DNA from: Nakamurella leprariae
GTDB taxonomy: Bacteria > Actinomycetota > Actinomycetes > Mycobacteriales > Nakamurellaceae
Direction of reading: 5' to 3'
Length of the DNA: 64,000 nucleotides
NCBI RefSeq assembly: GCF_016918035.1
Contig: NZ_JAERWK010000017.1
Span: 1-64,000 of the forward strand
In this document: in pieces, positions 8,953 through 25,457 of the stretch
Numbering within the stretch: the first letter of the stretch is position 1
Layout of the letters: each line of letters starts with the position of its first letter
Notes under the pieces: model-generated
Database searches by the model: none
The model's input: the letters and a program-made list of their open reading frames with translations, nothing else
Told to the model about the DNA's origin: nothing
Program-made: the position numbers and the translations under genes

Positions 8953-8987
8953 CGCCCGCCCGGGCGGGCGTTGCTAACAGGTATTAG
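8953..8987. promoter_or_regulatory. Palindromes in the divergent region upstream of the ABC operon
   Basis: Two elements sit between the divergent ABC operon (start 8848) and the hydrolase (start 9075). A perfect 18-bp palindrome of alternating C and G triplets covers 8953-8970. Five bases on, CTAACAGGTATTAG (8974-8987) is a 14-bp imperfect palindrome with CTAA/TTAG ends, the AT-richest stretch of this gap. Either could be a regulator site; the second looks more like a DNA-binding operator, the first more like a hairpin. No regulator can be assigned. Confidence 0.4.
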
Positions 8988-9074
8988 TCTTCCGGGTGGC
9001 GGGGACAGCGCATCGACTCGTCGGTCGCGGTCTGCCCGTGTCGCCCACCTGATTCATCGTCGAGGAGGTCTCCA

Positions 9075-9872
9075 GTGCCGAAGGCAGTCGTCAACGGGGT
9101 CGAACTGAACTACGAGGAAGCCGGTGAAGGTCCGCCGCTGCTCCTCATCTCGGGCCTGGGAGCGAACCGCAACGCCTGGGCCACCGTCGTGCCGGTGCTC
9201 AGCCAGCAGTACCGGGTCATCACCTTCGACAACCGGGGCACCGGTCAGTCGGAGGTCCCGCCCGGGCCGTACTCGATGAGCGACCTGGCCGCCGACACCG
9301 CCGCGCTGATCGACCACCTGGGCATCGGCCCGGTCCCCGTCGTGGGCTGGTCGATGGGTGGCGTCATCCTGCAGGCGCTCATGGTCGAGCATCCCGGCAA
9401 GGTGAGCCGGGCCGTGCTGCTGAGTACGTTCCCGTCCTACACCTACGTGCAGCACGCCTGGCTGGACGGGCTGCTGGCGCTGCGTGAGCAGAAGGTGTCA
9501 CCGCAGGTACTGGCCACCGCCAGCCTGCCGTGGGGCTTCACCGGGTTCGCGCTGTCCAACCACGACGCGGTCAAGGTCATGCTCGACATGGGTGCGCAGG
9601 ATCCGGAGCCGACCTCGGCCGAGGGCTTCGCCGCCCAGGCCCACGGCATCCGCCGGTTCGACATCGTCGACCAGCTGCCGACCATCAAGAACGTCCCGAC
9701 CCTGGTGCTGGTCGGGGCCGAGGACATCCTCACCCCGCCGGCCCAGGCGATCCAGATGGCCCAGGGCATCGAAGGTGCCGAGCTGGTCGTCCTGCCCCGC
9801 GGCAGCCACGGCATGGTCATCGAGTTCGGCGGTGCGGTCGTCCCGGTCATCCAGGAGTTCCTCGCCCGCTGA
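9075..9872 (+). CDS. Alpha/beta-fold hydrolase
   Basis: A 265-residue hydrolase of the carboxylesterase/lactonase-like group. Seen are the oxyanion region LLISGLGANRNAW, FDNRGTGQS, the nucleophile elbow GWSMGG (Ser about residue 94), the acid region VGAEDILTP and the catalytic His in GSHGMV. The GTG start at 9075 has a strong GAGGAGG ribosome site. Proteins of this type hydrolyse esters, lactones or C-C bonds. It is transcribed away from the ABC operon and terminates at a hairpin shared with ribBA. Substrate unknown; a ring-opening lactone hydrolysis would fit the island. Confidence 0.85.
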   Translation: MPKAVVNGVELNYEEAGEGPPLLLISGLGANRNAWATVVPVLSQQYRVITFDNRGTGQSEVPPGPYSMSDLAADTAALIDHLGIGPVPVVGWSMGGVILQALMVEHPGKVSRAVLLSTFPSYTYVQHAWLDGLLALREQKVSPQVLATASLPWGFTGFALSNHDAVKVMLDMGAQDPEPTSAEGFAAQAHGIRRFDIVDQLPTIKNVPTLVLVGAEDILTPPAQAIQMAQGIEGAELVVLPRGSHGMVIEFGGAVVPVIQEFLAR

Positions 9873-9898
9873 CGGGCGGACGCGCGACTGACGTGGCG

Positions 9899-9930
9899 GG
9901 TGGGTGGTCCGGAGATCCGGTCCACCCACC
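9899..9930. terminator. Bidirectional hairpin between hydrolase and ribBA
   Basis: GGTGGGTGG-T-CCGG pairs with CCGG-T-CCACCCACC across an AGAT loop, giving a 13-bp stem with one T-T mismatch. It sits between convergent stops at 9872 and 9938. Confidence 0.7.
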
Positions 9931-9937
9931 ACGCTGA

Positions 9938-11248
9938 TCACGACAGCACGACCGGGGTCGCGAACTCCTCGAGCATGTGGCCCAGCTTGGTGCGCTTGGT
10001 GGAGAGGTACCGGACGTTGTCCGGGTGCGGGGTGGTCTGCACGGTCAGCCGCTCGGTGACCAGGACGCCCCGATCCTCGAGACCGAGCCGCTTCTCCACG
10101 TTGTTCGTCAGCAGCCGGACCTGGGTCATGCCCAGGTCCTTGAGGATCTCGGCGCCGACACCGTAATCGCGCGCATCGACCGGGTGCCCCAGAGCGAGGT
10201 TGGCCTCGACCGTGTCCAGGCCCTGCTCCTGCAGCTGGTACGCCCGCAACTTCTCGCCGAGGCCGATGCCGCGGCCCTCGTGGCCGCGCAGGTAGATCAA
10301 CGCCCCGTACTCCTCGGACGCGATGCGCCGCAGGGATTGGTCGAGCTGCTCGCCACAGTCGCACCGGCGCGAGCCCATGATGTCACCGGTCAGGCATTCG
10401 GAGTGGACGCGGACCAGCGGCACGACGCCCGGCCGCGGGGTGCCGTGCACGAGCGCGAGGTGCTCGATGCCGGTGTCGGCGTCCCGGTACGCGGTGGCGC
10501 AGAAGGTGCCGACCCCGAGCGGCAGCGATGCGTTCCCGGTCCGGAGGACGCTGGACGGGACCAGCTGCCCCCGGCGGTAGCGGATCAGGTCGGAGATACA
10601 GATCAACGGCAATCCGTGCCGCTGCGCGAACTCGCGGAGTGACGGCAGCCGCGCCATCTCACCGTCCTCGTCGGCGATCTCGCAGATCACGCCGGCGGGG
10701 GCGAGGCCGGCCAGTTCGGCCAGATCGACCGAGGCCTCGGTGTGACCGGCGCGCTTGAGCACACCGCCGTCCTTCGCCGCCAGTGGGAAGGTGTGCCCGG
10801 GCTGGCTGAAGTCGTCGGGCCGGGCGCGCGGGTCCACCAGTGCCTTGATCGTCTCCGACCGGTCGGTGGCCGAGATCCCGGTGGTGGTGCGCGTGCGGTG
10901 ATCGACGGTCACATGGAACGCCGTCCGCAACGGATCGGTCACCCGGGTGACCATCGGCGGGATCTCCAGGTCGCGGAGACGCGCCTCAGTCAGCGACACG
11001 CAGACGAGGCCGCGCCCGTGCGTCGCCATGAAGTTGATGTGGTCCGGATTGACCCGGGCGGCGGCCATGACCAGGTCGCCCTCGTTCTCCCGATCAGGAG
11101 AATCCACGACCACGACCATGCCCCCGGCGCGGATGGCCGCGACCGCGTCGTCCACCGACGAGAAACCCGGGGACGGATCGGTGTGGAGCTGTGGACGACT
11201 CCCGCGCTGCCTGTCGGAGGAGGCGGTCGGTCGACTCTGACTGTTCAT
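9938..11248 (-). CDS. ribBA: Bifunctional 3,4-dihydroxy-2-butanone-4-phosphate synthase / GTP cyclohydrolase II
   Basis: A 436-residue fusion of RibB (residues about 25-225) and RibA (about 230-430). RibB shows the acidic metal-binding DSPDRENEGDLVMAA and HTEASVDLA; RibA has the zinc cysteines of SECLTGDIMGSRRCDCGEQL and the GRGIGLGEKLRAYQLQ catalytic block. It supplies both precursors for riboflavin. The ATG at 11248 with GAGGTG upstream is preferred over an ATG 15 codons earlier. No other rib genes and no FMN riboswitch are seen nearby, so this is a detached copy, plausibly feeding flavin to the many flavoenzymes of the island. Confidence 0.92.
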   Translation of the reverse strand: MNSQSRPTASSDRQRGSRPQLHTDPSPGFSSVDDAVAAIRAGGMVVVVDSPDRENEGDLVMAAARVNPDHINFMATHGRGLVCVSLTEARLRDLEIPPMVTRVTDPLRTAFHVTVDHRTRTTTGISATDRSETIKALVDPRARPDDFSQPGHTFPLAAKDGGVLKRAGHTEASVDLAELAGLAPAGVICEIADEDGEMARLPSLREFAQRHGLPLICISDLIRYRRGQLVPSSVLRTGNASLPLGVGTFCATAYRDADTGIEHLALVHGTPRPGVVPLVRVHSECLTGDIMGSRRCDCGEQLDQSLRRIASEEYGALIYLRGHEGRGIGLGEKLRAYQLQEQGLDTVEANLALGHPVDARDYGVGAEILKDLGMTQVRLLTNNVEKRLGLEDRGVLVTERLTVQTTPHPDNVRYLSTKRTKLGHMLEEFATPVVLS

Positions 11249-11260
11249 CGCACCTCGATT

Positions 11261-11279
11261 ACTGATCCGGTGGTTCAGT
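11261..11279. promoter_or_regulatory. Imperfect palindrome upstream of ribBA
   Basis: ACTGATCC-GGT-GGTTCAGT has 7 of 8 symmetric arm positions and lies 13 bases before the ribBA start, downstream of the TetR gene at 11471-12094. It has the size of a TetR-family operator. Whether it controls ribBA is inferred from position. Confidence 0.45.
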
Positions 11280-11470
11280 ATTGCACCGGTCACAGTCGAG
11301 TGCCAAGGCTTGGGACGCTACCAATCGACCAGATGGCCGGCCACCCGAAGTCGAGGACGTGCGTGGCCCGGCGGTGCGGTGCGGCACGGGCGCGTGCGGC
11401 CGGTGACGGACGGCCAGCAGGTCGAGACTGGCGACGCCCAGCCGGGGGTCGACCGAAGACCGAGCCGGCG

Positions 11471-12094
11471 TCAGGCGGACGGACTGAGCAGCGCGAGCAG
11501 GTAGGTGAGCAGCGTCTGCCGGAAGTGGCCGCTCACCGAACCGTGCGGCGTCTCCAGGATGGCTTCGGTGTACACCCCGCCGGCCAGCATGCGAGCCAGG
11601 ACCGAGGCGTCGGCGTCCGGCCGGGCGGTGCCGTTGCCCTGGTGGAACCGGATCAGTCGTTCGGGGATCTCGTGCGCCGTGTCGATGATGTTCGCCTTGT
11701 ACCAGGACCACATCTCCTGGTCGACGCGGCTGGTCGTGGATGCCTGGTAGTAGGTGGCCAGGCCGGTCTCGGTGGCGAACAGGCCGGCGAAGAAGTCGAT
11801 CATCGACGCCAGGTCGACCTCGAGCTCACCCGTCGGGAGGGGCGGCTCGTGCCCGTCCTCGCCGGACATGAGTGCGGCCCGCATGAGGTCCTCACGCCTC
11901 GGCCACCGCAGGTAGACGGTGTTCTTGGCGACGCCGGCGCGGCGGGCCACGGACACCAGGCTGAAGCCGGTCAGTCCGGCATCGGCGATCTCGTCCAGCG
12001 CGCAGCGCATGATCCGGGCGTCCACGGCTGCGGCGCGTGGACGTCCCGGTGAACGCCGGACGTCGTCGTCGCTCCGGACGGGGGCGGCTGCCAT
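11471..12094 (-). CDS. TetR/AcrR-family transcriptional regulator
   Basis: A 207-residue regulator. The N-terminal helix-turn-helix spans about residues 40-68 (GFSLVSVARRAGVAKNTVYL then RWPRREDLMRAA), and the rest is a helical ligand-binding domain that has LASMIDFFAGLFATE. The start at 12094 (MAAAPVRSDDDVRR) is the first in-frame ATG. It precedes ribBA on the same strand by about 220 bases and lies head-to-head with a second TetR gene across 12095-12223. Likely a local repressor of island genes; the palindrome at 11261-11279 is one possible target. Confidence 0.85.
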   Translation of the reverse strand: MAAAPVRSDDDVRRSPGRPRAAAVDARIMRCALDEIADAGLTGFSLVSVARRAGVAKNTVYLRWPRREDLMRAALMSGEDGHEPPLPTGELEVDLASMIDFFAGLFATETGLATYYQASTTSRVDQEMWSWYKANIIDTAHEIPERLIRFHQGNGTARPDADASVLARMLAGGVYTEAILETPHGSVSGHFRQTLLTYLLALLSPSA

Positions 12095-12189
12095 GGGTCG
12101 ACGCTACCTGCTTCCGCAGTCGGGAGGGGATGGTTCGCGCGGGCGACCGGGTCAGGGCCGGAGCCGCCGTACCCGGTGGATGAATCGGG

Positions 12190-12217
12190 TTTCCAAGTGG
12201 CCCGGGGAAGATAGACT
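12190..12217 (+). promoter_or_regulatory. Candidate leaderless promoter of the second TetR gene
   Basis: A TAGACT -10 hexamer (12212-12217) lies six bases before the ATG at 12224, with TTTCCA (12190-12195) 16 bases upstream as a weak -35. There is no ribosome site in the six-base gap, so transcription would start at or next to the start codon. The same TAGACT-to-start geometry recurs at 58334. Confidence 0.5.
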
Positions 12218-12223
12218 TTACCC

Positions 12224-12925
12224 ATGTCGGCGCCACTGCAGGAAGATCCTTCGCCTGGGAACGAGCGGTCCACCCGCACGGGTCCCGGTCGGTTCCAGGA
12301 CGTGGTGGAAGCGGCGCTGACCCTGTTCGCCGAGCGCGGATATCTCGGGACCAGCATGAAGGACATCGCCGGCCTGCTGGGGTTGCGAGCGCCCAGTCTG
12401 TACAACCACGTCGACTCCAAGCAGGAGCTGCTCCGAGAGATCATGGTCCGCACCATGAACGAGCTGCTGAATTCTCACCGCGCGGTCATCGCGACCAGCG
12501 CGGACGTGGTGGAGCAGTTGCGCCGGGCGATGGAGACGCACGTGATCTACCACGCGAACAATCCGCGGGACGTCCGGATCGGCAACGCTGAGATCCAGAA
12601 CCTGGAAGAACCCGTCCACGGGGAGATCCTCCGCATGCGCGATGAATACAGCGCCTCCTGGCAATCGATCATCGAGCGGGGTGTCCGGGAGGGACGATTC
12701 GATTCTCCGTCGCCCCGGTTGTCGAGTTTCGCGATGCTGGAAATGGGCATCGGAGTTTCGATGTGGTTCCGTCCGGGCGGCCCGCTCACCGTGGCGCAGC
12801 TGGGCTATTACTACGGGGACATGGCGCTGCGATTGGTGAACGCGGCGCCCGCGGCGGTGGGTCGCGCCGGTGCCGCGATGGCCGGTGTGGTGATTCCGGC
12901 CCAGGTGGACGTCCATCGCAGTTGA
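12224..12925 (+). CDS. TetR/AcrR-family transcriptional regulator, likely island regulator
   Basis: A 233-residue regulator with the HTH at about residues 43-72 (GTSMKDIAGLLGLRAPSLYN then HVDSKQELL). The C-terminal domain resembles those of regulators of lipid or CoA-ester catabolism (HVIYHANNPRDVRIGNAEIQ), with a ~25-residue Ala/Val-rich tail. The ATG at 12224 lacks a ribosome site and appears leaderless. It converges on the SDR gene at 13008 and is divergent from the other TetR. It is the best candidate to bind the palindrome in the divergent promoter at 17851, but this is only positional inference. Confidence 0.85.
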   Translation: MSAPLQEDPSPGNERSTRTGPGRFQDVVEAALTLFAERGYLGTSMKDIAGLLGLRAPSLYNHVDSKQELLREIMVRTMNELLNSHRAVIATSADVVEQLRRAMETHVIYHANNPRDVRIGNAEIQNLEEPVHGEILRMRDEYSASWQSIIERGVREGRFDSPSPRLSSFAMLEMGIGVSMWFRPGGPLTVAQLGYYYGDMALRLVNAAPAAVGRAGAAMAGVVIPAQVDVHRS

Positions 12926-12943
12926 TCCGACGATCAGACGGAG

Positions 12944-12986
12944 CGGGCCCGGTCCGACGTCCCCTCGGGGATGCGGACCGGGCCCG
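12944..12986. terminator. Bidirectional hairpin terminator
   Basis: A perfect 13-bp stem (12944-12956 with 12974-12986) with a 17-nt loop lies between the convergent TetR (stop 12925) and SDR (stop 13008) genes. Confidence 0.7.
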
Positions 12987-13007
12987 TCGTCGTGGTGGGG
13001 CAGCTGA

Positions 13008-13775
13008 TCAGCCGCCTCCACCGGTGGTCATGCTGCCGCCGTCGACCCGGTAGGTCTCACCGGTGATGAAGGCGGATTCGTCGGAGGCCAGGAACAGCAC
13101 CATGTTGGCGATGTCGTCCGGCACACCCACGCGCGGAGTGGCCACGCCGGCCAGGGCGGCCGCCGGCATGTCCGGCACCGCGGCGAGCAGCTGCTCGGTC
13201 TGGATGACGCCCGGGGCGATCGCGTTGCAGCGGACGCCCTCCTTGCCGTGCTGGGCGGCGATGTTGCGGGTCAGCCCGATCACGGCCGCCTTGGTGGTGC
13301 CGTAGGCGGTCAACGCGGCGCCACCGATGAGGCCGCCGATGGAGGCCATGTTGATGATCGAGCCGCCGCCCCCGGCCACCATGTGCGGCAGGGCGAACTT
13401 GGAGGCCAGGAAGATGCTGCGGACATTGGTGGCGAACGACCGGTCCCACAGCTCGACGCTGGTGGACAGCACGGTGCCGTCCTCGAACCACGCGGTCGGA
13501 CCGACCAGCGCGGCGTTGTTGTGCAGGATGTCGATGCGGCCGTGCCGCTCCATCGTGGTGTTGATCAGGTTCTCGATGGTGTCGCCCTGCACGGCGTCGA
13601 AGTACACCGCGCTGACGTTGTCACCGATGCTCTCGGCCACCTTGACGGCGTTGTCGTACTGCAGGTCGCCGATGACGACCTTGGCGCCCTCGGCCGCCAG
13701 CTTCCGCACCGTCGCGGCGCCGATGCCGGAACCACCACCCGTGACGATGGCAACTTTGCCTTCGACCCGTCCCAT
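13008..13775 (-). CDS. SDR-family oxidoreductase
   Basis: A 255-residue short-chain dehydrogenase. The cofactor loop TGGGSGIG is at residues 12-19, VVIGDLQYD suggests NAD, the NNAA motif is intact, and Ser of NMAS plus YGTTK complete the active site. The C-terminal RVDGGSMTTGGGG is a typical ending with extra glycines. It is separated from the hydrolase upstream by a hairpin, so it may be read from its own promoter. It closely resembles the SDR at 16934-17734 in length and motif wording and is probably a paralogue. Substrate unknown. Confidence 0.85.
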   Translation of the reverse strand: MGRVEGKVAIVTGGGSGIGAATVRKLAAEGAKVVIGDLQYDNAVKVAESIGDNVSAVYFDAVQGDTIENLINTTMERHGRIDILHNNAALVGPTAWFEDGTVLSTSVELWDRSFATNVRSIFLASKFALPHMVAGGGGSIINMASIGGLIGGAALTAYGTTKAAVIGLTRNIAAQHGKEGVRCNAIAPGVIQTEQLLAAVPDMPAAALAGVATPRVGVPDDIANMVLFLASDESAFITGETYRVDGGSMTTGGGG

Positions 13776-13837
13776 TGATCATTCCTCTCGGATTGCTTCG
13801 AAGTGCCGACACCTGCCGGCGCCGGCTGCACACCATT

Positions 13838-13876
13838 CCGGGTCGCGTCCACCGGGATCCGGCGGACGCGACCCGG
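13838..13876 (-). terminator. Hairpin downstream of the alpha/beta hydrolase
   Basis: A perfect 13-bp stem (13838-13850 with 13864-13876) encloses a 13-nt loop. It lies 42 bases past the hydrolase stop on the minus strand and would end the SDR-SDR-LLM-hydrolase transcript. Confidence 0.65.
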
Positions 13877-13917
13877 AAGTCCTGCTGGTCGGGCCGCCGG
13901 AGCCCGGCGGCCGCGCA

Positions 13918-14697
13918 TCACTTGGCCAGGAAGTTCTTGACCACGGTCAGGAACTGCTCCGGCTGCTCGAACATCGGGTAGTGGCCTGCGCCGTCGATGA
14001 TCTCCAGCTCGGCGGTCGGCACCAGGCGGGCGATCTCCTCCGCCTGCGCCACCGGCACGACGCCGTCCTTGGCGCCGTTGACCACCAGGGTCGGGGCGTC
14101 CACGTAGGGCAGACGACGGGCCAGGCCGCGGTCGGCGATCGGCCACAGGAACTTGGTGGCCGTGCCCAGGTTCTGGGCCTGGAAGAACATCGCGCCGAAC
14201 GGATCGTTGGGATCCTCGACGAAGATCGTCGGCTCCGGGTCCGGCTTGGCCGACGGATCGGCCCACAGCGCGGCCTGGACGTCCTTCGGGGCGCCGAACG
14301 GATCCTGCGGCGCCGGCTGGTCGTCGATCCAGACGCCGAACGAGTCGACCAAGACGAGCTTCTTCACCAGATGCGGGAAGAACGCGGCGATCTCGCCGGC
14401 GATCATGCCACCCGAGGAGTGCCCGACCAGAACCACCGGACCACCCAGGGTCTCGATGAACTTCCGGTAGAAGAGCACGAGATCGTAGATGTCGGTGAGG
14501 TTCTCGAAGCCCTCAGAGGTGCCGTAACCCGGCTGCTCCGGAGCGACGACGGAGTAGCTCTTCCCCAGCTCGGTCAGGAAGGCGGCTTCGCCCGGGTGCC
14601 GCTCGTAGCCGTGCAGGAAGACCAATGGGTCTCCACTGCCGGTGGTGACGACGTTCACGGTGAACGTTCCGACGTTCGGGACGTCGACGGTGCTCAT
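13918..14697 (-). CDS. Alpha/beta-fold hydrolase
   Basis: A 259-residue hydrolase starting MSTVDVPNVGTF with GAAAGGA upstream. It shows VFLHGYERHPGEA (oxyanion region), the nucleophile elbow GHSSGG (Ser about residue 95), VNGAKDGVVP for the acid and GAGHYPMFEQPEQF with the catalytic His. It follows the LLM monooxygenase on the minus strand by 68 bases and is the last gene of that unit. An LLM enzyme that inserts oxygen next to a ketone yields an ester or lactone, and this enzyme could hydrolyse it; that pairing is inference, not shown by the sequence. Confidence 0.85.
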   Translation of the reverse strand: MSTVDVPNVGTFTVNVVTTGSGDPLVFLHGYERHPGEAAFLTELGKSYSVVAPEQPGYGTSEGFENLTDIYDLVLFYRKFIETLGGPVVLVGHSSGGMIAGEIAAFFPHLVKKLVLVDSFGVWIDDQPAPQDPFGAPKDVQAALWADPSAKPDPEPTIFVEDPNDPFGAMFFQAQNLGTATKFLWPIADRGLARRLPYVDAPTLVVNGAKDGVVPVAQAEEIARLVPTAELEIIDGAGHYPMFEQPEQFLTVVKNFLAK

Positions 14698-14765
14698 GCT
14701 GTTCCTTTCGATCAGTCGATCACCGCTGGTGCGGTGGCCGGGGGAGCGGGCGGACCCGCCAGGGT

Positions 14766-16007
14766 TCAGGCGGATGTCGGGGACAGATCGGCCCTCGGTG
14801 CGTGGGCGGCGACCCGCTGCTGGCTGACCTGCGGCGTCCACCGGTCCTCGTACTCCGACCAGACGTCCCGGAGATGGGGGGCGACCTGGGTGCCGAACAG
14901 GTGGTTGTTCTCGGCGGCGACCTCCTCGGGGAGGTTGCCGATGTGCATGCAGGTGATGAGCTGGCCCACCCGCAGTTCGACGGCGAGATCGCGGACCCGC
15001 TGCCGCACCTTCTCCGGCGTACCGGCGATGATGAAGCCGAGATCGTCGTAGTCCCAGAAACTCAGCTCGCCCCGGGCGAGCTTGGCACGGACCTCCGGGC
15101 TGACACCCTTGGCGCGCCGGAGCTGCTCGCGCTGGGTGGCGATGCTGGTGTACCCCGGCGGTGTGCCGAAGTGCGGCTGGCCCTTCTGCATCGTGAAGAA
15201 GTAGTTGACCGCCTCGGCGTACTTGGCCTCGGCCTCCGCGTCGCTGTCCGCCACGCAGATCAGCTGGGTGAAGGCCATCCGGTTCGGATTGGCCTCGGCG
15301 CCGAGCTCGTCGACCCGGTCCCAGAAACCCTTGACGATCGGACGGGCGTTGTCGAGCCCCAGGAAGGACAGGTAGCCGTAGCAGTAGTCCTCCTGCAGCA
15401 CCAGGTCCCAGGTCTCGACGCTGCCGGTGCCCGGCACCCAGATCGGCGGCCGGCCCTGGATCGGACGCGGCACCGCGTTCACGTAGCGGAGCTTGTTGTA
15501 CTTGCCGTTGAACGCGAACGGCTCCGGCTCCGTCCACGCCCGGGTGATGAGCTGGCGGGCCTCGTGGAACCGGTCGCGGATCTCGGCCGGCGGGATCCCG
15601 TAGGCGAATGCGGTGTCCGGCGGCGTCCCGAAGACGAAGCCGGCGATGACCCGGCCCTCGGACACGCAGTCGATGTAGGCCATCTCTTCGGCCACCCGGA
15701 TCGGTGGGTTGTAGAGGGCCAGCGAGTCGCCGATGATCAGGATCGCGGCGTTCTGCGTGGTGTCCGCCAGCGTGGCCGCCAGCAGGTTCGGTGACGGGGT
15801 CATGGCGAACGCCGTCTGGTGGTGCTCGTTGACGGCCAGGCCGTCCCACCCGAGGGCGTCCGCCTGCTGCATGAGCCGGGTGAACATCTTGTAGTGCTGT
15901 CCGACCGTGTACGGATCCAGGACGTCCCGGGGGATGTCCACGCTGACCGATGACACATCCTTCGGCAGATCGCCGTAGGTGGCCTCGGCGAACCAGTGGA
16001 ACTTCAT
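14766..16007 (-). CDS. LLM-class flavin-dependent monooxygenase (paralogue 1)
   Basis: A 413-residue luciferase-like TIM-barrel protein starting MKFHWFAEATYG. It has the family blocks VNEHHQTAFAMTPSPNLLAA, SEGRVIAGFVFG and PPIWVPGTGSVETWD, and the AGTPEKVRQRV C-terminal segment. The reduced flavin (FMNH2 or F420H2) would be supplied by a separate reductase; none is fused. It shares these blocks almost word for word with the 416-residue protein at 18711-19961, which points the opposite way. Likely a type II Baeyer-Villiger-like or hydroxylating monooxygenase of the island; substrate unknown. The start at 16007 is chosen because MKFHWFA is conserved in the paralogue. Confidence 0.87.
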   Translation of the reverse strand: MKFHWFAEATYGDLPKDVSSVSVDIPRDVLDPYTVGQHYKMFTRLMQQADALGWDGLAVNEHHQTAFAMTPSPNLLAATLADTTQNAAILIIGDSLALYNPPIRVAEEMAYIDCVSEGRVIAGFVFGTPPDTAFAYGIPPAEIRDRFHEARQLITRAWTEPEPFAFNGKYNKLRYVNAVPRPIQGRPPIWVPGTGSVETWDLVLQEDYCYGYLSFLGLDNARPIVKGFWDRVDELGAEANPNRMAFTQLICVADSDAEAEAKYAEAVNYFFTMQKGQPHFGTPPGYTSIATQREQLRRAKGVSPEVRAKLARGELSFWDYDDLGFIIAGTPEKVRQRVRDLAVELRVGQLITCMHIGNLPEEVAAENNHLFGTQVAPHLRDVWSEYEDRWTPQVSQQRVAAHAPRADLSPTSA

Positions 16008-16053
16008 CGTTGAATGCTCCAGTTCTCGCGCGTCGGGACGGTGGACGGGACGA

Positions 16054-16866
16054 TCAGAAGTCGGGGCCGAGGCCACTGATCGGCGGCATGCCGGAGTGGG
16101 CGTGCAGACCACCGTCGACGGTGACGTAGGTCCCGGTCATGAAGCCGGCGTCGTCCGAAGCCAGGAAGGCCACGGTCGCGGCGATCTCCTCGGGCTTGCC
16201 GTAGCGACCCATGGGGATGGCGTTCTTGATGCTGTCGTAGATCTCCGGCGCGCCGTCCTTGAGGGCGGACTCGATCGGCGGCGTGCCGATCGGGCCGGGG
16301 CAGACCGCGTTGACGCGGACCCCCTTGCGGGCGTACTCGATCCCGGCCGCCTTGGTCATGCCCAGGATGCCCGCCTTGAGCATGTTGTAGACACCCAGGC
16401 CGTAGTCGCCGGCCAGGCCGGACACCGACGAGGTGCTGACGATGGCGCCCTTGCCCTGCGCGACCATCGGCACGAGGGCCAGTTTGACCGCGTACCAGTA
16501 CGCGACCAGGCTGATGTCCAGGGACCGCCGCACGCCTTCCAGCGTCACGTCGCCCATCCGGCCGCTCTCGAACCAGACGTGGTTGTTGTGCAGGATGTCG
16601 AGCCGGCCGTGCTTGTCCAGCACGTTCTGCACGGCCGCTTCGATCGCCTCGGGGGTGCCGGCGTCGGCCTGCTGGTAGTCGACCTCCGCGCCGGTCTCCT
16701 TGATGGACTCGGCGACGCCCTTGACGGCGTCCTCGCGCAGGTCCAGCAGCAGCAGCTTGGCGCCCTCGGCGGCCAGCCGGCGGGCGGAGGCCTCGCCGAT
16801 GCCGGAGCCGGCGCCGGTGACGATCGCGATGCGGTCCTGGAGGCGGTTCTGAAGGTTCAGCGCCAT
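16054..16866 (-). CDS. SDR-family oxidoreductase with atypical NNH motif
   Basis: A 270-residue SDR. Cofactor loop TGAGSGIG lies at about residues 17-24, LLLLDLRED gives the acidic NAD-type residue, and the catalytic set is Ser of VSTSS and YNMLK. The structural NNAG motif is changed to NNHVWF, an oddity that leaves an aromatic-rich loop near the active site. The tail HAHSGMPPISGLGPDF is longer than usual. The ATG at 16866 has AGGAGAAGCA upstream. It lies 46 bases before the LLM gene and 67 bases after another SDR, in one minus-strand operon. Confidence 0.85.
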   Translation of the reverse strand: MALNLQNRLQDRIAIVTGAGSGIGEASARRLAAEGAKLLLLDLREDAVKGVAESIKETGAEVDYQQADAGTPEAIEAAVQNVLDKHGRLDILHNNHVWFESGRMGDVTLEGVRRSLDISLVAYWYAVKLALVPMVAQGKGAIVSTSSVSGLAGDYGLGVYNMLKAGILGMTKAAGIEYARKGVRVNAVCPGPIGTPPIESALKDGAPEIYDSIKNAIPMGRYGKPEEIAATVAFLASDDAGFMTGTYVTVDGGLHAHSGMPPISGLGPDF

Positions 16867-16933
16867 TGCTTCTCCTCGTGCCAGTGGGTCAGTGAGTGGA
16901 TCGGGGTGTTGCCGGTGGTGGGACGGGACGAGA

Positions 16934-17734
16934 TCAGGCGGAGACGCCGTGCTCGGCCGGGAGCTCGACCTTGGGAGCGGCGACACCGGCGGTGCTGCCG
17001 CCGTCCACGGTGATCACCTGGCCGTTGATGTACTCGCCCTCCTTGGAGGACAGGAACGCGACCACGTTGCCCATGTCCTTGCCAACTCCGCCGCGGATCC
17101 ATGGAAGGGTGGAGAGCACGCCCTCCTCGACGCCAGGGACGTTGGCCAGGACCTGTTCGGTGAGGACCGCGCCTGGGGCGATGCAGTTGGTGCGGACGTT
17201 GTTGCGGCCGTACTGGACGGCCATGTACTTGGTCAGGGCGGCCACGCCGGCCTTGGAGATGCCGTAGGCGATCAGCGTCGGCGACCCGGAGAACGCCGCG
17301 ATCGAGGCCATGTTCACGATGGACCCACCCCCGCGCCGGATCATGTGCGGCACAGCCAATTTCGACAGCACGAAGGTGCTGCGCAGGTTGACCGCCATGG
17401 TGCGGTCGTACCAGTCGATCTCGGTGTCCAGCAGTGTGGTGTCGCGGCTCCAGGCCGCAGCCGTGATGGCGGCGTTGTTGTGCAGGATGTCGAGGCCGCC
17501 GTGCTGCTCGACGACGGCGTCGACCAGGCTCGTGATGGAGTCGACGTCCGAGGCGTCGTACGCCACGGCCGAGACGTTCGATCCGAGTCGTTCGGCGGTG
17601 GCCTGGGCCGCCTCCGCCTGGATGTCCCCGATGACCACCTTGGCGCCGTACCCGGCGAGCACTTCGGCGGTGGCGGCGCCGATGCCGCCTGCCGCACCCG
17701 TGACCAGGGCCACCTTCCCGGACAGATCCGTCAT
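16934..17734 (-). CDS. SDR-family oxidoreductase, first gene of the minus-strand catabolic operon
   Basis: A 266-residue SDR with TGAAGGIG at residues 13-20, VVIGDIQ, an NNAA motif, Ser of NMASIAAF and YGISK. It ends with VITVDGGSTAGV and a 20-residue extension. A strong AAAGGAGGAG ribosome site precedes the ATG at 17734. It opens the SDR-SDR-LLM-hydrolase unit and is divergent from the EthD gene, with a 202-base shared promoter region. It likely oxidises an alcohol intermediate of the pathway. Confidence 0.86.
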   Translation of the reverse strand: MTDLSGKVALVTGAAGGIGAATAEVLAGYGAKVVIGDIQAEAAQATAERLGSNVSAVAYDASDVDSITSLVDAVVEQHGGLDILHNNAAITAAAWSRDTTLLDTEIDWYDRTMAVNLRSTFVLSKLAVPHMIRRGGGSIVNMASIAAFSGSPTLIAYGISKAGVAALTKYMAVQYGRNNVRTNCIAPGAVLTEQVLANVPGVEEGVLSTLPWIRGGVGKDMGNVVAFLSSKEGEYINGQVITVDGGSTAGVAAPKVELPAEHGVSA

Positions 17735-17850
17735 GCAACTCCTCCTTTGGAGTTCGCGGCACCCCGGAGCTCCGGTGGACCCCGATCCTGCTGTCTGGCA
17801 GCATTTCTGGGGATTCCATCGGGCGTCGGGTGGTGTACGGTGAGGAGACT

Positions 17851-17864
17851 AACGAGTAGTCGTT
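17851..17864. promoter_or_regulatory. TetR-type palindromic operator in the divergent catabolic promoter
   Basis: AACGAGTAGTCGTT has perfect 5-bp arms (AACGA/TCGTT) around GTAG, in the 17735-17936 gap between two divergent operons. The flanking ACT and CGGT extend it towards the ACTAACGA-N-TCGTTnGT shape typical of TetR operators in actinobacteria. It lies 117 bases from the SDR start and 73 from the EthD start, so one bound dimer could control both sides. Confidence 0.6.
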
Positions 17865-17936
17865 CGGTGGGCAACCGCCGGAGGTCACCCCCGGCGCCTC
17901 ACCGGTCGTCCTGTCCAATGGTGGAGAAGGAGTGAC

Positions 17937-18239
17937 ATGATCAAGCTGACGGTGCTCTACCAGGAGCCGGCCGATCCTGAGGCGTTCCGGGAGCACTACC
18001 TGAACGTGCATTCGCCGCTCGTGCGGGCACTGCCGGGTCTCGACAAGTTCGAGGTCGCTTTCGCCGCCCCGGGTCCGGACGGTTCGAAGCCGCCGTTCCA
18101 CCTGGTGTCGGAGCTGTGGTTCCCGGACGCCGCCACCTTCGGTGCGGCCATGCAGACGCCCGAGGGTGCCGCCCTCGCCGCCGACACCCCGAACGTGGCC
18201 AGCACGCCGTCGACCTCGGTGATCACCGAGATCGTCTGA
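17937..18239 (+). CDS. EthD domain protein
   Basis: A 100-residue dimeric alpha/beta-barrel type protein with the EthD signature FREHYLNVHSPLVRALPGL (residues about 18-36) and a hydrophobic C-terminal strand. EthD was first seen beside an ether-degrading P450 system; related small proteins act as isomerases or decarboxylases, but the function of most is open. It starts at an ATG with GGAGAAGGAGTG upstream and opens the plus-strand unit EthD - 103-aa protein - LLM. It is divergent from the SDR operon, so it is probably co-regulated with it. Confidence 0.85.
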   Translation: MIKLTVLYQEPADPEAFREHYLNVHSPLVRALPGLDKFEVAFAAPGPDGSKPPFHLVSELWFPDAATFGAAMQTPEGAALAADTPNVASTPSTSVITEIV

Positions 18240-18279
18240 TCCGACCCCGTCCGTTCCGGTTCACCCGAGGAGACCATCG

Positions 18280-18591
18280 GTGCAGATCCACGTCGACCCG
18301 TCCGCGTCGGACGACGCCGTCAGACTGGTCGGACCGGACGACTTCAAGTCCTTCGCAGTGATCAGCCCGGGCGGCCTCGACGCCGCCAGGGCTCCGCTGC
18401 AGGCGGCGGGCGTCGCCGTCGAGGACGAGCACGCCTGGATCCCGGTCGATCTGCTCCGCCGGCTCGCCGGCCCCGCAGCGGACGCCGACTGGGAGACCGG
18501 CCTGGCGGGCATGCTGAAGTACGCCCAGTCCAAGGGCTGGTACCGGGACTCCGACAGCAGCATCCGCGCTCACGTCGAGTCGGCCGGCTGA
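18280..18591 (+). CDS. Unrecognised 103-residue protein of the catabolic operon
   Basis: Translation from GTG 18280, preceded by GAGGAGA, gives 103 residues with no transmembrane segment or signal peptide. Visible are HVDPSASDDAVRLVGPDDFK at the N-terminus, HAWIPVDLLRRLAG in the middle and MLKYAQSKGWYRDSDSSIRA near the end. The composition is that of a soluble alpha/beta protein. I do not recognise the family. It lies 40 bases after EthD and about 120 before the LLM gene, so it is embedded in the operon and may be a pathway enzyme subunit or isomerase; nothing in the sequence proves it. Confidence 0.75.
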   Translation: MQIHVDPSASDDAVRLVGPDDFKSFAVISPGGLDAARAPLQAAGVAVEDEHAWIPVDLLRRLAGPAADADWETGLAGMLKYAQSKGWYRDSDSSIRAHVESAG

Positions 18592-18710
18592 CCGGACGTT
18601 CCACCGGCTCGGTCCGCCCCGACCCCGTCTCGCGGCGAGACCGGACCCACCGCTGTTGCACCTGCATCCCCGGCCCACGCGGGCTGGCATCTCGCAGAAA
18701 GGCTGGACCG

Positions 18711-19961
18711 ATGAAGTTCCACTGGTTCGCGCAGTACTACTACACCAAGCTCGCCGAGAACTACGGCGACACCGTCCACAGCTCCTGGGTGGACGCCCCG
18801 ATCTCCGCTGCCGATCCGGAGCAGATCGGTGAGGACTACCGGATGTACCTCCGGCTCATGCAGCGTGCCGACAGGGAGGGCTGGGACTCGTTGCTGCTGA
18901 ACGAGCACCACCAGACCTCCCTGGCCATGACGCCGTCGCCGAACCTGTTCGCCTCGGTGCTGGCCGCGACCACGGAGAACGCCGCCATCACCCTGTGCGG
19001 CAACTCGCTGGCCCTGTACAACCCGCCGGTCCGCGTGGCCGAGGAGATGGCCACCCTGGACACCCTGTCCGGCGGCCGCCTCATCGCCGGCATCGTGTTC
19101 GGCACCCCGATGGACACCGCCTTCTGCTACGGCGTGCCGCCGATCGAGGCCCGTGAGCGTTTCCACGAGGCCCGCGAGCTGGTCACCCGGGCGTGGAAGG
19201 AGCCGGAGCCGTTCGCCTTCAACGGCACCTACAACAAGCTCCGCTACGTCAACATCTGGCCGCGGCCGATCCAGAAGAACATCCCGATCTGGATCCCGGG
19301 CTCCGGCTCGGTCGAGACCTGGGACGTCGTCAACGACAACGACTACTGCTACGGCTACCTGTCCTTCTCGGGCAAGCAGAGCGCCCAGCCGATCGTGAAC
19401 GGTTTCTGGGAGTACACGGAGTCCACCGGGGCGAACATGAACCCGAACCGGATGGCCTTCACCCAGGTGATCTGCACCGCCGACTCGGACAAGGAGGCGG
19501 AGGAGAAGTACTACGACGCCATCCGGTACTTCTACCGTCAGAACCCGGTCGCCCCTGAGTTCGGTGGCCCTCCCGGATACAACTCGCTGCCGTCGATGCG
19601 CGCCATGCTCGGTCGTGAGAAGACCATCTCAGCCGAGCAGCGGGCCAAGGCGGCCAAGGGCGAGCTGTCCTTCTGGGAGTACGACGAGCTGGGCTACATC
19701 ATCGCCGGCACCCCGGAGCGGGTCGAGCAGCGCGTGCGCGAGCTGTCCGAGGAGCTGCGCATCGGCCAGCTGATCACCTGCATGCACATGGGCAACCTGG
19801 ACGAGGAGACGGCGTCGATGAACGTCGACCTCTTCGGCCGTCACGTGATCCCCAAGCTCCGCGACGTGCACTCGGAGTACGAGGACCACTGGACTCCGCA
19901 GGAGAGCCAGCGTCGGGTGGCCGCGGCCGCTGCCGCCAAGCTGTCCGCCGCGACCGTCTGA
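18711..19961 (+). CDS. LLM-class flavin-dependent monooxygenase (paralogue 2)
   Basis: A 416-residue protein starting MKFHWFAQYYYTK, paralogous to the enzyme at 14766-16007. Shared blocks include NEHHQTSLAMTPSPNLFA, PEPFAFNGTYNKLRYVN, IPGSGSVETWD, PNRMAFTQVIC and RIGQLITCMHMGN. It differs from paralogue 1 mainly in residues 10-30 and in the Ala-rich C-terminus. AGAAAGGCT precedes the ATG. It ends the EthD operon at a strong hairpin. Two diverged copies in one regulon suggest action on successive intermediates or on stereoisomers, which is inference. Confidence 0.88.
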   Translation: MKFHWFAQYYYTKLAENYGDTVHSSWVDAPISAADPEQIGEDYRMYLRLMQRADREGWDSLLLNEHHQTSLAMTPSPNLFASVLAATTENAAITLCGNSLALYNPPVRVAEEMATLDTLSGGRLIAGIVFGTPMDTAFCYGVPPIEARERFHEARELVTRAWKEPEPFAFNGTYNKLRYVNIWPRPIQKNIPIWIPGSGSVETWDVVNDNDYCYGYLSFSGKQSAQPIVNGFWEYTESTGANMNPNRMAFTQVICTADSDKEAEEKYYDAIRYFYRQNPVAPEFGGPPGYNSLPSMRAMLGREKTISAEQRAKAAKGELSFWEYDELGYIIAGTPERVEQRVRELSEELRIGQLITCMHMGNLDEETASMNVDLFGRHVIPKLRDVHSEYEDHWTPQESQRRVAAAAAAKLSAATV

Positions 19962-19983
19962 CGGTTCCGGTCCGACTGTTCGA

Positions 19984-20017
19984 CGAGGGCGTTCCCGCCA
20001 CGGCGGGAGCGCCCTCG
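19984..20017 (+). terminator. Strong hairpin after the LLM operon
   Basis: A 16-bp stem with one T-G wobble (19984-19999 with 20002-20017) and a two-base loop starts 22 bases past the LLM stop. Confidence 0.8.
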
Positions 20018-20099
20018 TGGCGTTCCGGGGCGTCCGCTCGTCTCCCGGCGGCACTGCGCCGGCGCGACCCCGCGTGCGGCCTGGTGCGGGCTTGCATCC

Positions 20100-20131
20100 G
20101 GCCCGGCACCGGAGTGGTCTGGTGCCGGGCC
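20100..20131 (-). terminator. Hairpin after the SDR gene
   Basis: A perfect 11-bp stem (20100-20110 with 20121-20131) with a 10-nt loop lies 45 bases beyond the SDR stop on the minus strand. With the 19984 hairpin it insulates the two convergent units. Confidence 0.7.
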
Positions 20132-20176
20132 TGAACTCGGGACAGACCGCCGGTCAGGCGGTCCGGGTGGGCCTGT

Positions 20177-20941
20177 TCACTGAGCAGCCCAACCTCCGTC
20201 GATGGTGATGATCGATCCGATGAGGTATCGCGCGGCGTCCGAGAGCAGGTACTGCACAGCGCCTTCCAGATCTGCCGGGGTGGCGAAGGCGCCGAGCGGG
20301 ATCTGGTTGAGCAGCCGGTCGCGGGACTTCTCGTGACCGCGCATACCCGCGGTCATCGAGGTCTCGACGTACCCCGGAGCGACGGCGTTCACCCGGACCC
20401 CCTGGGGCGCCCACTCGACCGCCAGGGTGCGGGTCAGCATGTCGATGCCGCCCTTCGAGGCGGCGTACGCGGCCAGGCGCGGCGCGGCGACCGCGCCGTG
20501 GATGGACGAGACGTTGACGATGCTCCCGCTGCCGGCCTCGAGCATGACGCGACCGGCGGCGGTGGCGGCGATGAACGCGCCGGTCAGGTTGATGTCGATG
20601 ATGTTGGTCCAGTCGGCGAGGCTCAGTTGTTCGCTGCGGACCAGCACCGGGCTGATGCCGGCGTTGTTGACCAGACCGTCCAGTCGACCGAACCGCGCGA
20701 CGGCGGCCTGCACGCAGGCCTCGGCGACCTCCGGGTCGGTGACGGAGCCGACGACGATCTCGGCCCGCCCACCCTCGTGCTCGATGTCCTTCTTGATCGT
20801 GTGCAGAGCGTCGCCGGAGCGGGCCTGCAGCACGAGGCGGGCGCCGTTGGCGGCCAAGCCGCGGGCGATGCCCTCGCCGATGCCACGACTGGCTCCGGTG
20901 ATCCAGACGACCTTGTCGGTGACGTCGAACGGTGTGCTCAC
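20177..20941 (-). CDS. SDR-family oxidoreductase
   Basis: A 254-residue SDR from a GTG start at 20941 with GGAGGAG upstream; the much longer open frame above it is not coding. Features: TGASRGIG at about residues 14-21, a VLQARS loop whose arginine suggests NADP, NNAG, Ser of NVSS and YAASK, and the ending IITIDGGWAAQ. It differs from the three SDRs at 13-17.7 kb in cofactor loop and in lacking their ILHNN wording, so it belongs to another SDR subgroup. It lies at the right edge of the catabolic island and is monocistronic. Confidence 0.85.
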   Translation of the reverse strand: MSTPFDVTDKVVWITGASRGIGEGIARGLAANGARLVLQARSGDALHTIKKDIEHEGGRAEIVVGSVTDPEVAEACVQAAVARFGRLDGLVNNAGISPVLVRSEQLSLADWTNIIDINLTGAFIAATAAGRVMLEAGSGSIVNVSSIHGAVAAPRLAAYAASKGGIDMLTRTLAVEWAPQGVRVNAVAPGYVETSMTAGMRGHEKSRDRLLNQIPLGAFATPADLEGAVQYLLSDAARYLIGSIITIDGGWAAQ

Positions 20942-21263
20942 GAACTCCTCCGGTCCCTGCGGCCGACCACGGGGGTCGGGACCGAGAGGTCCGGGCCCGC
21001 ATTGGCCGAGGATCTGATGCACAGCGATCGGGACGAGTCGGCGCGTCCCCGAGTGGCACGCATCACGGTGTGACGCGTGCCAAGAGGATAGGCATCCGGG
21101 CTCCGGCCGGGCAAGCCGTCCGGCCGGTCGGTTGGGAACGGTGCCGGGCACTGTGAACTGCGTCGACGAGCACTGTCGTCCGGCCCGACCTACCCTGGCG
21201 GCGGGATTCGCGTGTGTCCCCGTCAGCGTCGACGGGACCGGACGACAGGACGTGGACCATGGG
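20942..21263. other. Intergenic region between divergent SDR and membrane-protein genes
   Basis: No gene is supported. An inverted repeat TGGCACGC (21054-21061) / GCGTGCCA (21075-21082) with a 13-base spacer occurs at its centre and could be an operator or a weak hairpin. The rest is GC-rich without clear promoters. Confidence 0.4.
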
Positions 21264-21629
21264 GTGTCGATCGCATCGGCGCGCACCGGCGAGGACCGGT
21301 GCGGCGTGCTGCGGCGCACGGCGGCAGCACGCGAGCCGGGGCGGTGGCCGGTCGTGATGGCCGGATTCCTGGCCGTGGTGGTCGGAGCGGTGATGGTCGC
21401 CTGTGCTCCGTACGCGCGACAGGACTCGGCCCGTCGGGTGCCCGGTAGCCGCGCCGCGGACCGCTGGCTGTGGTTGCTGTCGACCGTCGGAGCGGCCTCG
21501 GGCCTGGCCGGATCGGCCGTGCTGCACCGCGGGATCGGCTGGTGGGCGCTGGTGCTGTGGATCGGCATCCTGGTCTTCGCCCAGGCCGTGGTGGCGATGT
21601 ACCGGTGGTCCGAACAGGCGCCGCGGTGA
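21264..21629 (+). CDS. Small membrane protein of unknown function
   Basis: The frame has three hydrophobic segments: VVMAGFLAVVVGAVMVACAP, WLWLLSTVGAASGLAGSAVL and WWALVLWIGILVFAQAVVAM. From the GTG at 21264 it is 121 residues; an ATG at 21357 giving 90 residues starts just before the first helix and is also possible. A basic linker (RQDSARRVPGSRAADR) separates helices 1 and 2. I do not recognise the family. It converges on the LapA-like gene with 17 bases between stops. Start uncertain; that the helices are real coding is likely. Confidence 0.55.
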   Translation: MSIASARTGEDRCGVLRRTAAAREPGRWPVVMAGFLAVVVGAVMVACAPYARQDSARRVPGSRAADRWLWLLSTVGAASGLAGSAVLHRGIGWWALVLWIGILVFAQAVVAMYRWSEQAPR

Positions 21630-22091: not shown

Positions 22092-22165
22092 GGGCCTGTA
22101 GCTCAGGCGGTTAGAGCGCTTCCCTGATAAGGAAGAGGTCGGAGGTTCAAGTCCTCCCAGGCCCA
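22092..22165 (+). tRNA. tRNA-Ile (GAT)
   Basis: A complete 74-nt cloverleaf: acceptor GGGCCTG pairs with CAGGCCC, D-stem GCTC/GAGC, anticodon stem CTTCC/GGAAG around CTGATAA (anticodon GAT), T-stem GGAGG/CCTCC with TTCAAGT. The discriminator is A; CCA is not encoded. Confidence 0.97.
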
Positions 22166-22240
22166 CTGCGGAAGCCCTCCGGCGACGAGCCGTAGTGTGG
22201 TCGAACCGGAGCGGAACGGCACACCACGGGAGGCTGACCC

Positions 22241-22552
22241 ATGAAGAAGGCGCTGTTCTTGATCGCGCTCGGCGCGGGCGCAGTGTTGTTCGCCCAGAAG
22301 CGCAAGCGCGAGGCGGAAGCAGAGGCCGCCCTGTGGGCCGAGGCCACCGCCGCCACGCCGTCGCCGGCTCCCGGCCCGGTGCCGAGCCCCGGCGACACCA
22401 GCGCCAAGCCCGCTCCGGTGACCGTCGCGTCGACGCCCGCGGCCAGTGCTCCGGCGAGCGAGTCGGCCACCACGGCTCCGGCCACGCCGTCTCCCGCCCC
22501 GCCGACGGGCCAGGCCGGCGCCGGGACCCCGATCCCCGGCAGCACTTCCTGA
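22241..22552 (+). CDS. DLW-39 family protein
   Basis: A 103-residue protein starting MKKALFLIALGAGAVLFAQK, a single hydrophobic N-terminal segment followed by a basic KRKREAEAE helix and ALWAEAT, the family's DLW motif with Ala in place of Asp. Residues 45-103 are a low-complexity Ala/Pro/Ser/Thr tail, longer than in most members, which are about 40 residues. DLW-39 proteins are actinobacterial, and typically sit beside the tRNA-Ile/tRNA-Ala pair, as here. Function unknown. Confidence 0.8.
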   Translation: MKKALFLIALGAGAVLFAQKRKREAEAEAALWAEATAATPSPAPGPVPSPGDTSAKPAPVTVASTPAASAPASESATTAPATPSPAPPTGQAGAGTPIPGSTS

Positions 22553-22590
22553 GTGTAGCGACGCTCTGTCGCCGGCTCGCCGGCGGCTCC

Positions 22591-22663
22591 GGGGACGTAG
22601 CTCAATTGGCAGAGCACCGCCTTTGCAAGGCGGGGGTTGGGAGTTCGATTCTCCTCGTCTCCA
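22591..22663 (+). tRNA. tRNA-Ala (TGC)
   Basis: A 73-nt cloverleaf: GGGGACG pairs with CGTCTCC (one G-T), D-stem GCTC/GAGC, anticodon stem CCGCC/GGCGG around TTTGCAA (anticodon TGC), T-loop TTCGATT. An encoded CCA follows at 22664-22666, unlike the tRNA-Ile. Confidence 0.97.
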
Positions 22664-22838
22664 CCACGACCTGATCGTTCGCCGGCGTCGGTGGTCCCGT
22701 CCAGTTCTGCGATGAGACCGCCTGTTCCGCCGCAGATCTCGCGCCTCCCCGCGCCCCCGTCTTTGACCGGCCAGGAGTGCGAGTCCAGCCTCCACGGCGC
22801 GCATCATCGCGCTACCCACCCTGGTCGGCTGCATCGAG

Positions 22839-23614: not shown

Positions 23615-23719
23615 TCACCGGGCGCGGACGGCCACGGGAGGCCGGCGAGGGTGTCCTAGGGTTGGTCCGCGGTCCGCAGGGGTACCGAGGGCCGACTCGA
23701 TGGGAAGGGCGGACCTGCG

Positions 23720-25416: not shown

Positions 25417-25457
25417 CCCAGCCGACTGACCCAGCCGACCCCAAGGACAGGACCTCG

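Follow-up and report, generated by a model that had tools for sequence, protein, structure and literature searches.

We describe a gene island at the left edge of a contig of Nakamurella leprariae (NZ_JAERWK010000017.1, assembly GCF_016918035.1), which encodes two paralogous luciferase-like monooxygenases (LLMs), LLM_A and LLM_B, together with short-chain dehydrogenases/reductases (SDRs), alpha/beta hydrolases, a CoA transferase, and two TetR regulators. The window, i.e., the whole stretch of DNA analyzed, comprises bases 1-64000 of this 77,154-base contig in a 4.47-Mb genome. The island is very probably one catabolic unit. The full scheme that we favor, in which the LLMs act as Baeyer-Villiger monooxygenases and their products are hydrolyzed and passed to CoA transfer, is assigned a probability of about 0.55. 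Islands combining two-component LLM oxygenation with hydrolysis are a known type; what is new is that the two LLMs are conserved as a pair and that a so far unnamed family of likely accessories, represented here by a 103-amino-acid (103-aa) protein, accompanies them; this family is the newest point of the analysis.

Two units diverge from a gap at 17735-17936. The minus-strand unit is composed of SDR3 (16934-17734), SDR2 (16054-16866), LLM_A (14766-16007), Hyd1 (13918-14697), a hairpin with 20-nt arms, and SDR1 (13008-13775). The plus-strand unit is composed of an EthD-family gene (17937-18239), the 103-aa gene (18280-18591), and LLM_B (18711-19961). TetR1 (11471-12094, minus strand; PF00440) and TetR2 (12224-12925, plus strand; PF17932 and PF00440) lie beyond SDR1. 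Both LLMs matched PF00296 (118.5 and 122.0 bits; cut-off, 27.9), and the EthD-family protein matched PF07110 (59.2 bits; cut-off, 22) and TIGR02118 (91.7; cut-off, 30.5). SDR1, SDR2 (in the longer frame), and SDR3 matched PF13561. All five SDRs of the island carry the TGxxxGxG and YxxxK motifs of classical SDRs (TGGGSGIG and YGTTK in SDR1). Hyd1 is a serine alpha/beta hydrolase (PF12697/PF00561, in the longer frame) with the GxSxG nucleophile elbow GHSSG; the corresponding motif of the second hydrolase, Hyd0, is GWSMG. Gene calls, motifs, and Pfam thus bore out the gene order, strands, and families that a sequence-only reading had given for 12224-20941; the second TetR gene, second hydrolase, and CoA transferase that it had placed nearby were located at 11471-12094, 9075-9872, and 955-2482, respectively.

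Conservation of the gene set was assessed in a locus sample. A profile of LLM_A, LLM_B, a third copy from the same genome, and one Mycobacterium relative retrieved 506 relatives in genome contigs, and the best 80 of these defined the 79 loci to which all counts out of 79 refer. In Streptomyces brasiliensis (L057) and S. carpinensis (L058), the ten-gene block TetR1, TetR2, SDR1, Hyd1, LLM_A, SDR2, SDR3, EthD, 103 aa, and LLM_B was kept in order and orientation, with 44-79% protein identity to the window genes (53-54% for TetR1, in the same place; 64-66% for TetR2; 46 and 44% for the 103-aa protein). Because both genomes carry the identical arrangement, the gene set is beyond chance. In both Streptomyces blocks, a flavin reductase gene (PF01613) directly follows LLM_B, as judged by Pfam for S. 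brasiliensis and by profile match for both. Seven Pseudonocardia and Geodermatophilus loci (L059, L061-L065, and L069) carry SDR2, Hyd1, SDR1, EthD, and LLM_B in one direction, and LLM_A is present in three of them; the island of Geodermatophilus sabuli is adjoined by thiolase and acyl-CoA dehydrogenase genes. The locus of Sphingobium soli (L070) comprises SDR0, SDR1, LLM, Hyd1, Hyd0, SDR3, DHBP synthase (RibB), and SDR4, as well as both CoA-transferase subunits and an acyl-CoA dehydrogenase; that of S. lactosutens (L072), also a Sphingobium, resembles it as judged by homology. Since the Sphingobium loci combine both gene sets, they loosely tie the left part of the island to its core.

The most conserved part of the island is the LLM-Hyd1 pairing: of the 42 loci whose LLM is at least 55% identical, 33 have Hyd1 at most 1.5 kb from the LLM and on its strand. 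This adjacency is what oxygen insertion followed by hydrolysis, as proposed in the sequence-only reading, predicts, and, with the co-occurrence of the gene set in related loci, it upholds the earlier idea of a single catabolic unit. Homologs were counted in the 79 loci as follows: Hyd0, 14 (identity at least 48%); SDR1, 12, SDR2, 11, and SDR3, 4 (each at least 48%); SDR0, 11 (at least 55%); EthD, 9; SDR4, 7 (at least 38%); and TetR1, TetR2, the 103-aa gene, RibBA, CoA transferase, and the major facilitator superfamily (MFS) transporter, 2 each. The expected joint occurrence of the two LLMs with EthD and the 103-aa gene was found in part: the whole set occurred in 2/79 loci, both LLMs with EthD in 5/79, and EthD with LLM_B in 9/79. 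Relatives were found across Actinomycetota and Pseudomonadota, where their neighbors include genes for a CoA transferase, a thiolase, an acyl-CoA dehydrogenase, a TonB receptor, and uptake. Within the host's own family, LLM_A/LLM_B were detected at E 1e-30 in 1/17 genomes, namely that of the window, so the island is patchy; it would be mobile by horizontal transfer, or at the least retained in a patchy manner.

The relationship of the two LLMs was resolved in a tree of 88 rows. LLM_A (6 rows) and LLM_B (13 rows, including the third copy) form fully supported clades that are sister to each other (support, 98/90), which implies that the duplication is older than the dispersal of the island, now seen in four families of actinobacteria. 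Thirty other relatives share 182 conserved columns, of which 8 are lost in LLM_A and 12 in LLM_B; the NEHH and PSPN motifs are present in the two proteins. The idea that LLM_A is a dead paralog was therefore not supported, and both proteins look active, presumably with different pockets. The third copy, 86% identical to LLM_B, stands alone on contig C39 (C39:20561; L037 10561-11823) beside BioY, CbiQ, DJ-1, and PALP/CBS genes, which are unrelated to the island. The genome holds at least 73 PF00296 matches at E 1e-20 (101 candidates, of which 73 were scored), compared with 5 to 54 in the 16 other genomes of the family. Alignment A5 was made without L071, L100, and L131.

A structure model of LLM_B was built with AlphaFold2 from 23 alignment rows (predicted local distance difference test [pLDDT], 87.0; predicted TM score [pTM], 0.89). 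Its closest solved folds were 2i7g (Z 34.9), RslO1 (Z 33.3), and luciferases (Z about 31), followed by 3,6-diketocamphane monooxygenase (Z 30.8; root-mean-square deviation [rmsd], 3.1; 333 residues; 5aec/4uwm, Z 30.8/30.7). Lower matches were F420 enzymes (at most 27.4), MsuD (27.0), SsuD (25.4), RutA (25.2), and BdsA (24.9). In NCBIfam, the F420-dependent LLM subfamilies were missed by a wide margin (best TIGR03619, 84.7 against a cut-off of 166.9; TIGR03560, 75.3 against 231.4); F420 use itself is still conceivable.

Gene content, the conserved block, paralogy, motifs, and fold are what the data show; from them we infer the reaction type, the order of the steps, the substrate, and the regulation. 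An oxidation of type II Baeyer-Villiger character, dependent on reduced flavin mononucleotide (FMNH2), is somewhat favored for the key LLM step because of the fold ranking of LLM_B, the misses in the F420 subfamilies, and the presence of SDRs, a Ser hydrolase, and, in the Streptomyces blocks, a flavin reductase. In the proposed order, SDRs would first turn an alicyclic or hydroaromatic alcohol into a ketone. A flavin reductase from another site in the genome would supply FMNH2 to LLM_B and LLM_A, which would then insert one oxygen beside the ketone, probably acting on successive or differently substituted intermediates. Hyd1 (and Hyd0) would open the resulting ester or lactone, and renewed oxidation by SDRs, together with the CoA transferase, would send the acid into beta-oxidation. 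RibBA may top up the flavin pool, the ATP-binding cassette (ABC) and MFS transporters may import the substrate or pump it, and EthD and the 103-aa protein would serve as accessories. No evidence pointed to terpenoids in particular, one of the options in the sequence-only reading. Candidate flavin reductases do exist in the genome: two PF01613 genes lie outside the window, on contigs C26 and C1, and the product of the former shares 43-46% identity with the flavin reductases of the Streptomyces islands. RibBA/RibB genes recur in the LLM islands of Mycobacterium branderi, Geodermatophilus, and Sphingobium.

Several observations weigh against this scheme. The island genes that were scanned include no flavin reductase. 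The left part (955-11293) connects to the core via partial matches elsewhere and not by a single conserved block. Nine of the 42 LLM loci lack a same-strand Hyd1; four of these have Hyd0 instead, and one is cut by a contig end. The sequence-only reading is weakened in that neither LLM_A nor the 103-aa gene is obligatory, since the former is missing from L061-L064 and the latter was found in none of the seven Pseudonocardia/Geodermatophilus loci. The likeness to the LLM of Sphingobium sp. AntQ-1, discussed below, rests on its published description. Finally, RslO1, the second-best fold match of LLM_B, is reportedly an epoxidase of polyketide biosynthesis (PMC11354265), and another kind of oxygen insertion is possible.

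This last point leads to a different chemistry, in which the LLMs would epoxidize or hydroxylate the ring, as RslO1 or limonene 1,2-monooxygenase does, and a hydrolase would later cut an ester or C-C bond with no Baeyer-Villiger step. In addition to the RslO1 match, limonene 1,2-monooxygenase has been assigned to the protein family of the diketocamphane enzymes (PMC5395668). We consider this course unlikely. The tight LLM-hydrolase pairing and the upstream SDRs better match ketone oxidation. The branch of alpha/beta hydrolases that comprises epoxide hydrolases and haloalkane dehalogenases uses an Asp nucleophile. Hyd1 has Ser at this place, as does Hyd0, and was ruled out as an epoxide hydrolase. 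Cleavage of a heteroaromatic ring, amide, or sulfone by LLMs of the RutA, DszA/BdsA, or HcbA1 type, with hydrolases finishing the acyl products, is less probable still. Such LLMs also accompany flavin reductases and hydrolases, and RutA and BdsA share the LLM_B fold at Z of about 25; however, these scores are clearly below those of the luciferase/diketocamphane group, the island has no amidase, sulfinase, or nitrogen gene, and its five SDRs indicate alcohol/ketone chemistry.

The pair might also form one heterodimer with a single catalytic subunit, like LuxA/LuxB. The sister clades occur together in six genomes, and LLM_A was never seen without LLM_B among the 79 loci. We nevertheless hold this arrangement to be improbable: LLM_B occurs without LLM_A in L061-L064, the EHH motif is present in both proteins, neither looks dead by its lost columns, and the two genes are in opposite operons. 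The least probable explanation, to which we give very little credence, is that the island tailors a secondary metabolite instead of degrading a substrate. Polyketide clusters, for example that of rishirilide, often carry LLM, SDR, and flavin reductase genes (PMC7221717); however, no polyketide, peptide, or terpene synthase was found in or near the block, and the degradative and uptake genes beside its relatives speak for catabolism.

For the Baeyer-Villiger scheme, known systems offer parallels. No paper describing this gene set was recognized among those searched, judging by titles and abstract starts. The sequence-only reading could name no matching pathway; the logic of the set has precedents in three reports (PMC9836352, PMC12239570, and PMC5395668). 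In Sphingobium sp. AntQ-1, the cluster most strongly induced by 9,10-anthraquinone is an LLM-hydrolase pair; the LLM sphantq_4473 adjoins the alpha/beta hydrolase sphantq_4474, as LLM_A adjoins Hyd1 here, and is 39-42% identical to Ramlibacter proteins (PMC9836352). The authors propose a type II Baeyer-Villiger oxidation and then lactone hydrolysis in two rounds, akin to our scheme; their second Baeyer-Villiger monooxygenase (BVMO) is of type I, and the accessible text describes no EthD, 103-aa gene, or SDR block (PMC9836352). The LLM EGO55_13860 of the Caenibius tardaugens pdc cluster was shown to catalyze Baeyer-Villiger oxidation of progesterone, and its flavin reductase gene lies at a distant site in that genome, as is proposed for the genome of the window; unlike the island, the four-gene cluster contains a type I BVMO and two regulators and, in the available description, no hydrolase, SDR, or EthD (PMC12239570).

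The diketocamphane monooxygenases of Pseudomonas putida (4uwm and 5aec) are two-component FMN enzymes and type II BVMOs, with two isoenzymes in one pathway, like the LLM_A/LLM_B pair. LLM_B shares their fold (Z 30.7-30.8; rmsd 3.1; 332-333 residues) at 19-21% identity, and the profile covers about 105 residues (E 3e-11). For SAR202, a scheme of SDR, type II BVMO, lactone opening, and CoA transfer has been put forward for its FMNO enzymes (PMC5395668). That scheme is a genome-wide inference over scattered paralogs and other CoA-transferase families, whereas here most steps are encoded in one island (PMC5395668). SAR202 and other Chloroflexota harbor relatives of LLM_B with 44-46% identity. Plasmids of M. 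branderi, Caballeronia sp. SBC2, and Rhodococcus pyridinivorans (pNAPH) likewise carry LLM, hydrolase, and flavin reductase genes next to one another; the M. branderi cluster has RibBA and TetR genes as well, like the island. These plasmid LLMs are 33-39% identical, and no EthD or 103-aa gene was found in the stretches viewed.

The 103-aa protein matched no Pfam family at E 0.1. Among 16 family members scanned, one reached E 0.032 in Pfam and two reached E 0.0095 and 0.097 in NCBIfam, far under the cut-off; a profile search of the PDB sequences returned no match to E 1. A model built from three rows (pLDDT, 78.7; pTM, 0.72) gave no structural match of any confidence, with a best Foldseek E of 1.1 and a best VIA Z of 4.7. 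Relatives were found in 2/17 genomes of the host's family, on 6 plasmids, and in 20/394 sampled genomes of its class by profile (the host included) or 17/394 by single sequence. G218 (E 3.7e-4), which the profile did not recover, was excluded from these counts. A pattern scan of the genome contig collection with the 103-aa protein matched 148 stretches, none of which was confirmed.

The surroundings of the 103-aa genes were compared in 22 stretches with flanks of up to about 10 kb. A flavin reductase was found in 12, an LLM in 13, either in 16, and neither in 6. For G069, G303, G316, and G332, the flank viewed was about 1.5 kb. A PF01613 gene lay within 205 bp in 6/19 other class genomes and within 1.2 kb in 7/19, compared with 0.02 and 0.05 expected under uniform placement (p about 4e-14). 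This p value is overstated because four of the six close cases share one genus and catabolic genes cluster anyway; the independent cases amount to three genera, or four with the case at 1.1 kb. Proximity to LLM genes was set aside as weak evidence, as the 20 genomes hold 11 to at least 70 LLM matches each. In one genome, a 481-aa LLM has the 103-aa domain as its N-terminal part (G347; L042 4726-6171, minus strand), and on a Sulfitobacter and a Pseudosulfitobacter plasmid the same holds for a flavin reductase whose gene adjoins an LLM gene (L028 8968-9768 and L029 8968-9786). From this gene context, the protein may well serve two-component LLM systems as an accessory. We propose more tentatively, as one possibility, that it founds an unrecognized family of helpers acting as a third component of these monooxygenases, because its domain shares a polypeptide with the oxygenase in one genome and with the reductase on two plasmids, and its gene lies within about 200 bp of a flavin reductase gene in three genera. 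Such a helper would dock the flavin reductase to the oxygenase, or handle FMNH2 or a shared intermediate. As a side observation, the plasmid of Rhodococcus sp. USK10 (L031) carries a 103-aa gene between an LLM gene and a RibBA-like gene, a flavin reductase, and a hydrolase. A few kb away are a second flavin reductase-LLM-hydrolase trio and maleylacetate-reductase-like and catechol-dioxygenase-like genes; this group is possibly an aromatic ring-opening pathway.

The divergent promoter contains a candidate operator, ACTAACGAGTAGTCGTTCG (17848-17866), with the arms AACGA/TCGTT. It is identical at 17/19 bases, in the same position, in L057 and L058, with an ungapped score of 14.0 against shuffled bests of 12.5 and 13.5 (200 shuffles each). 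No second site within 2 mismatches was found across the 64-kb window, the same site counting on both strands. At up to 2 mismatches, it was not found promoter-side of the co-directional Pseudonocardia/Geodermatophilus operons as scanned, apart from a few two-mismatch matches. It is a candidate for TetR1 or TetR2 because these two genes are likewise confined to L057 and L058 among the 79 loci. With two TetR genes in the block and one conserved palindrome, TetR control is plausible, and one TetR protein would switch the divergent promoter via this operator.

Further genes of the island lie on either side of the block. On the left, the CoA transferase is encoded by a beta gene (955-1632, minus strand; PF01144, E 2e-51; 59% identical to its L070 and L072 counterparts) and an adjoining alpha gene identified by its reading frame (1664-2482, minus strand). 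They are followed on the minus strand by an MFS transporter (2584-4266; PF07690; 29-30% homologs in L070 and L072), whose real start probably gives a shorter protein, by SDR0 (4089-4880; PF13561/PF00106, in the longer frame), and by an ABC importer (4972-8935) with permease (4972-6033; PF02653), ATPase (6030-7634; PF00005), and substrate-binding protein (7631-8935; PF13407). Hyd0 (9075-9872, plus strand; PF00561) and RibBA, for riboflavin precursor synthesis (9938-11293, minus strand; PF00926 and PF00925), complete this part. On the right, SDR4 (20177-20941, minus strand; PF13561, in the longer frame) likely belongs to the island. RibBA, the ABC importer, the flavin reductase after LLM_B in Streptomyces, and the third LLM copy had not featured in the sequence-only reading. 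Its hairpins bounding the units were recovered, four in all with arms of 13-20 nt: between the converging TetR2 and SDR1 genes (12944-12986; perfect 13-nt arms), between Hyd1 and SDR1 (13836-13878; 20-nt arms, 95%), 3' of LLM_B (19983-20018; 17-nt arms, 94%), and at 20097-20134 (17-nt arms, 88%). They are not T-tailed terminators: a consensus scan of 9000-21500 gave 2 sites against 3.1 in shuffles, none at the hairpins.

The block at 11471-20941 has a G+C content of 68.4%, compared with 71.8% for 21500-64000. The left end of the island is cut, as the window begins at the contig edge. Directly right of the island are tRNA-Ile(gat) and tRNA-Ala(tgc) (22092-22666), a pair preceded shortly upstream by gyrA in 4/6 sister regions. 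In this genome, gyrA lies on contig C1, about 7.5 kb before the end of that contig and with no copy of the tRNA pair in between, and the island may have been inserted between the two. Comparison of the C1 end with the window start gave no exact 15-199-base end overlap and no blastn match. Further right are genes for a GSP_synth (glutathionylspermidine synthase-like) protein and then a DUF350 membrane protein (23662-26339), and another PF00296 gene (29151-30212, minus strand), distant from LLM_A and LLM_B.

Type II Baeyer-Villiger enzymes are thinly characterized, and in actinobacteria and SAR202 few genes are as expanded, or as poorly assigned, as those for LLMs. As a compact and presumably regulated unit with two LLM paralogs, SDRs, a hydrolase, and a CoA transferase, the island can be tested, and its substrate could be found by induction. 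If the 103-aa family couples reductase and oxygenase, the hand-over of reduced flavin, usually described as free diffusion, would need rethinking.

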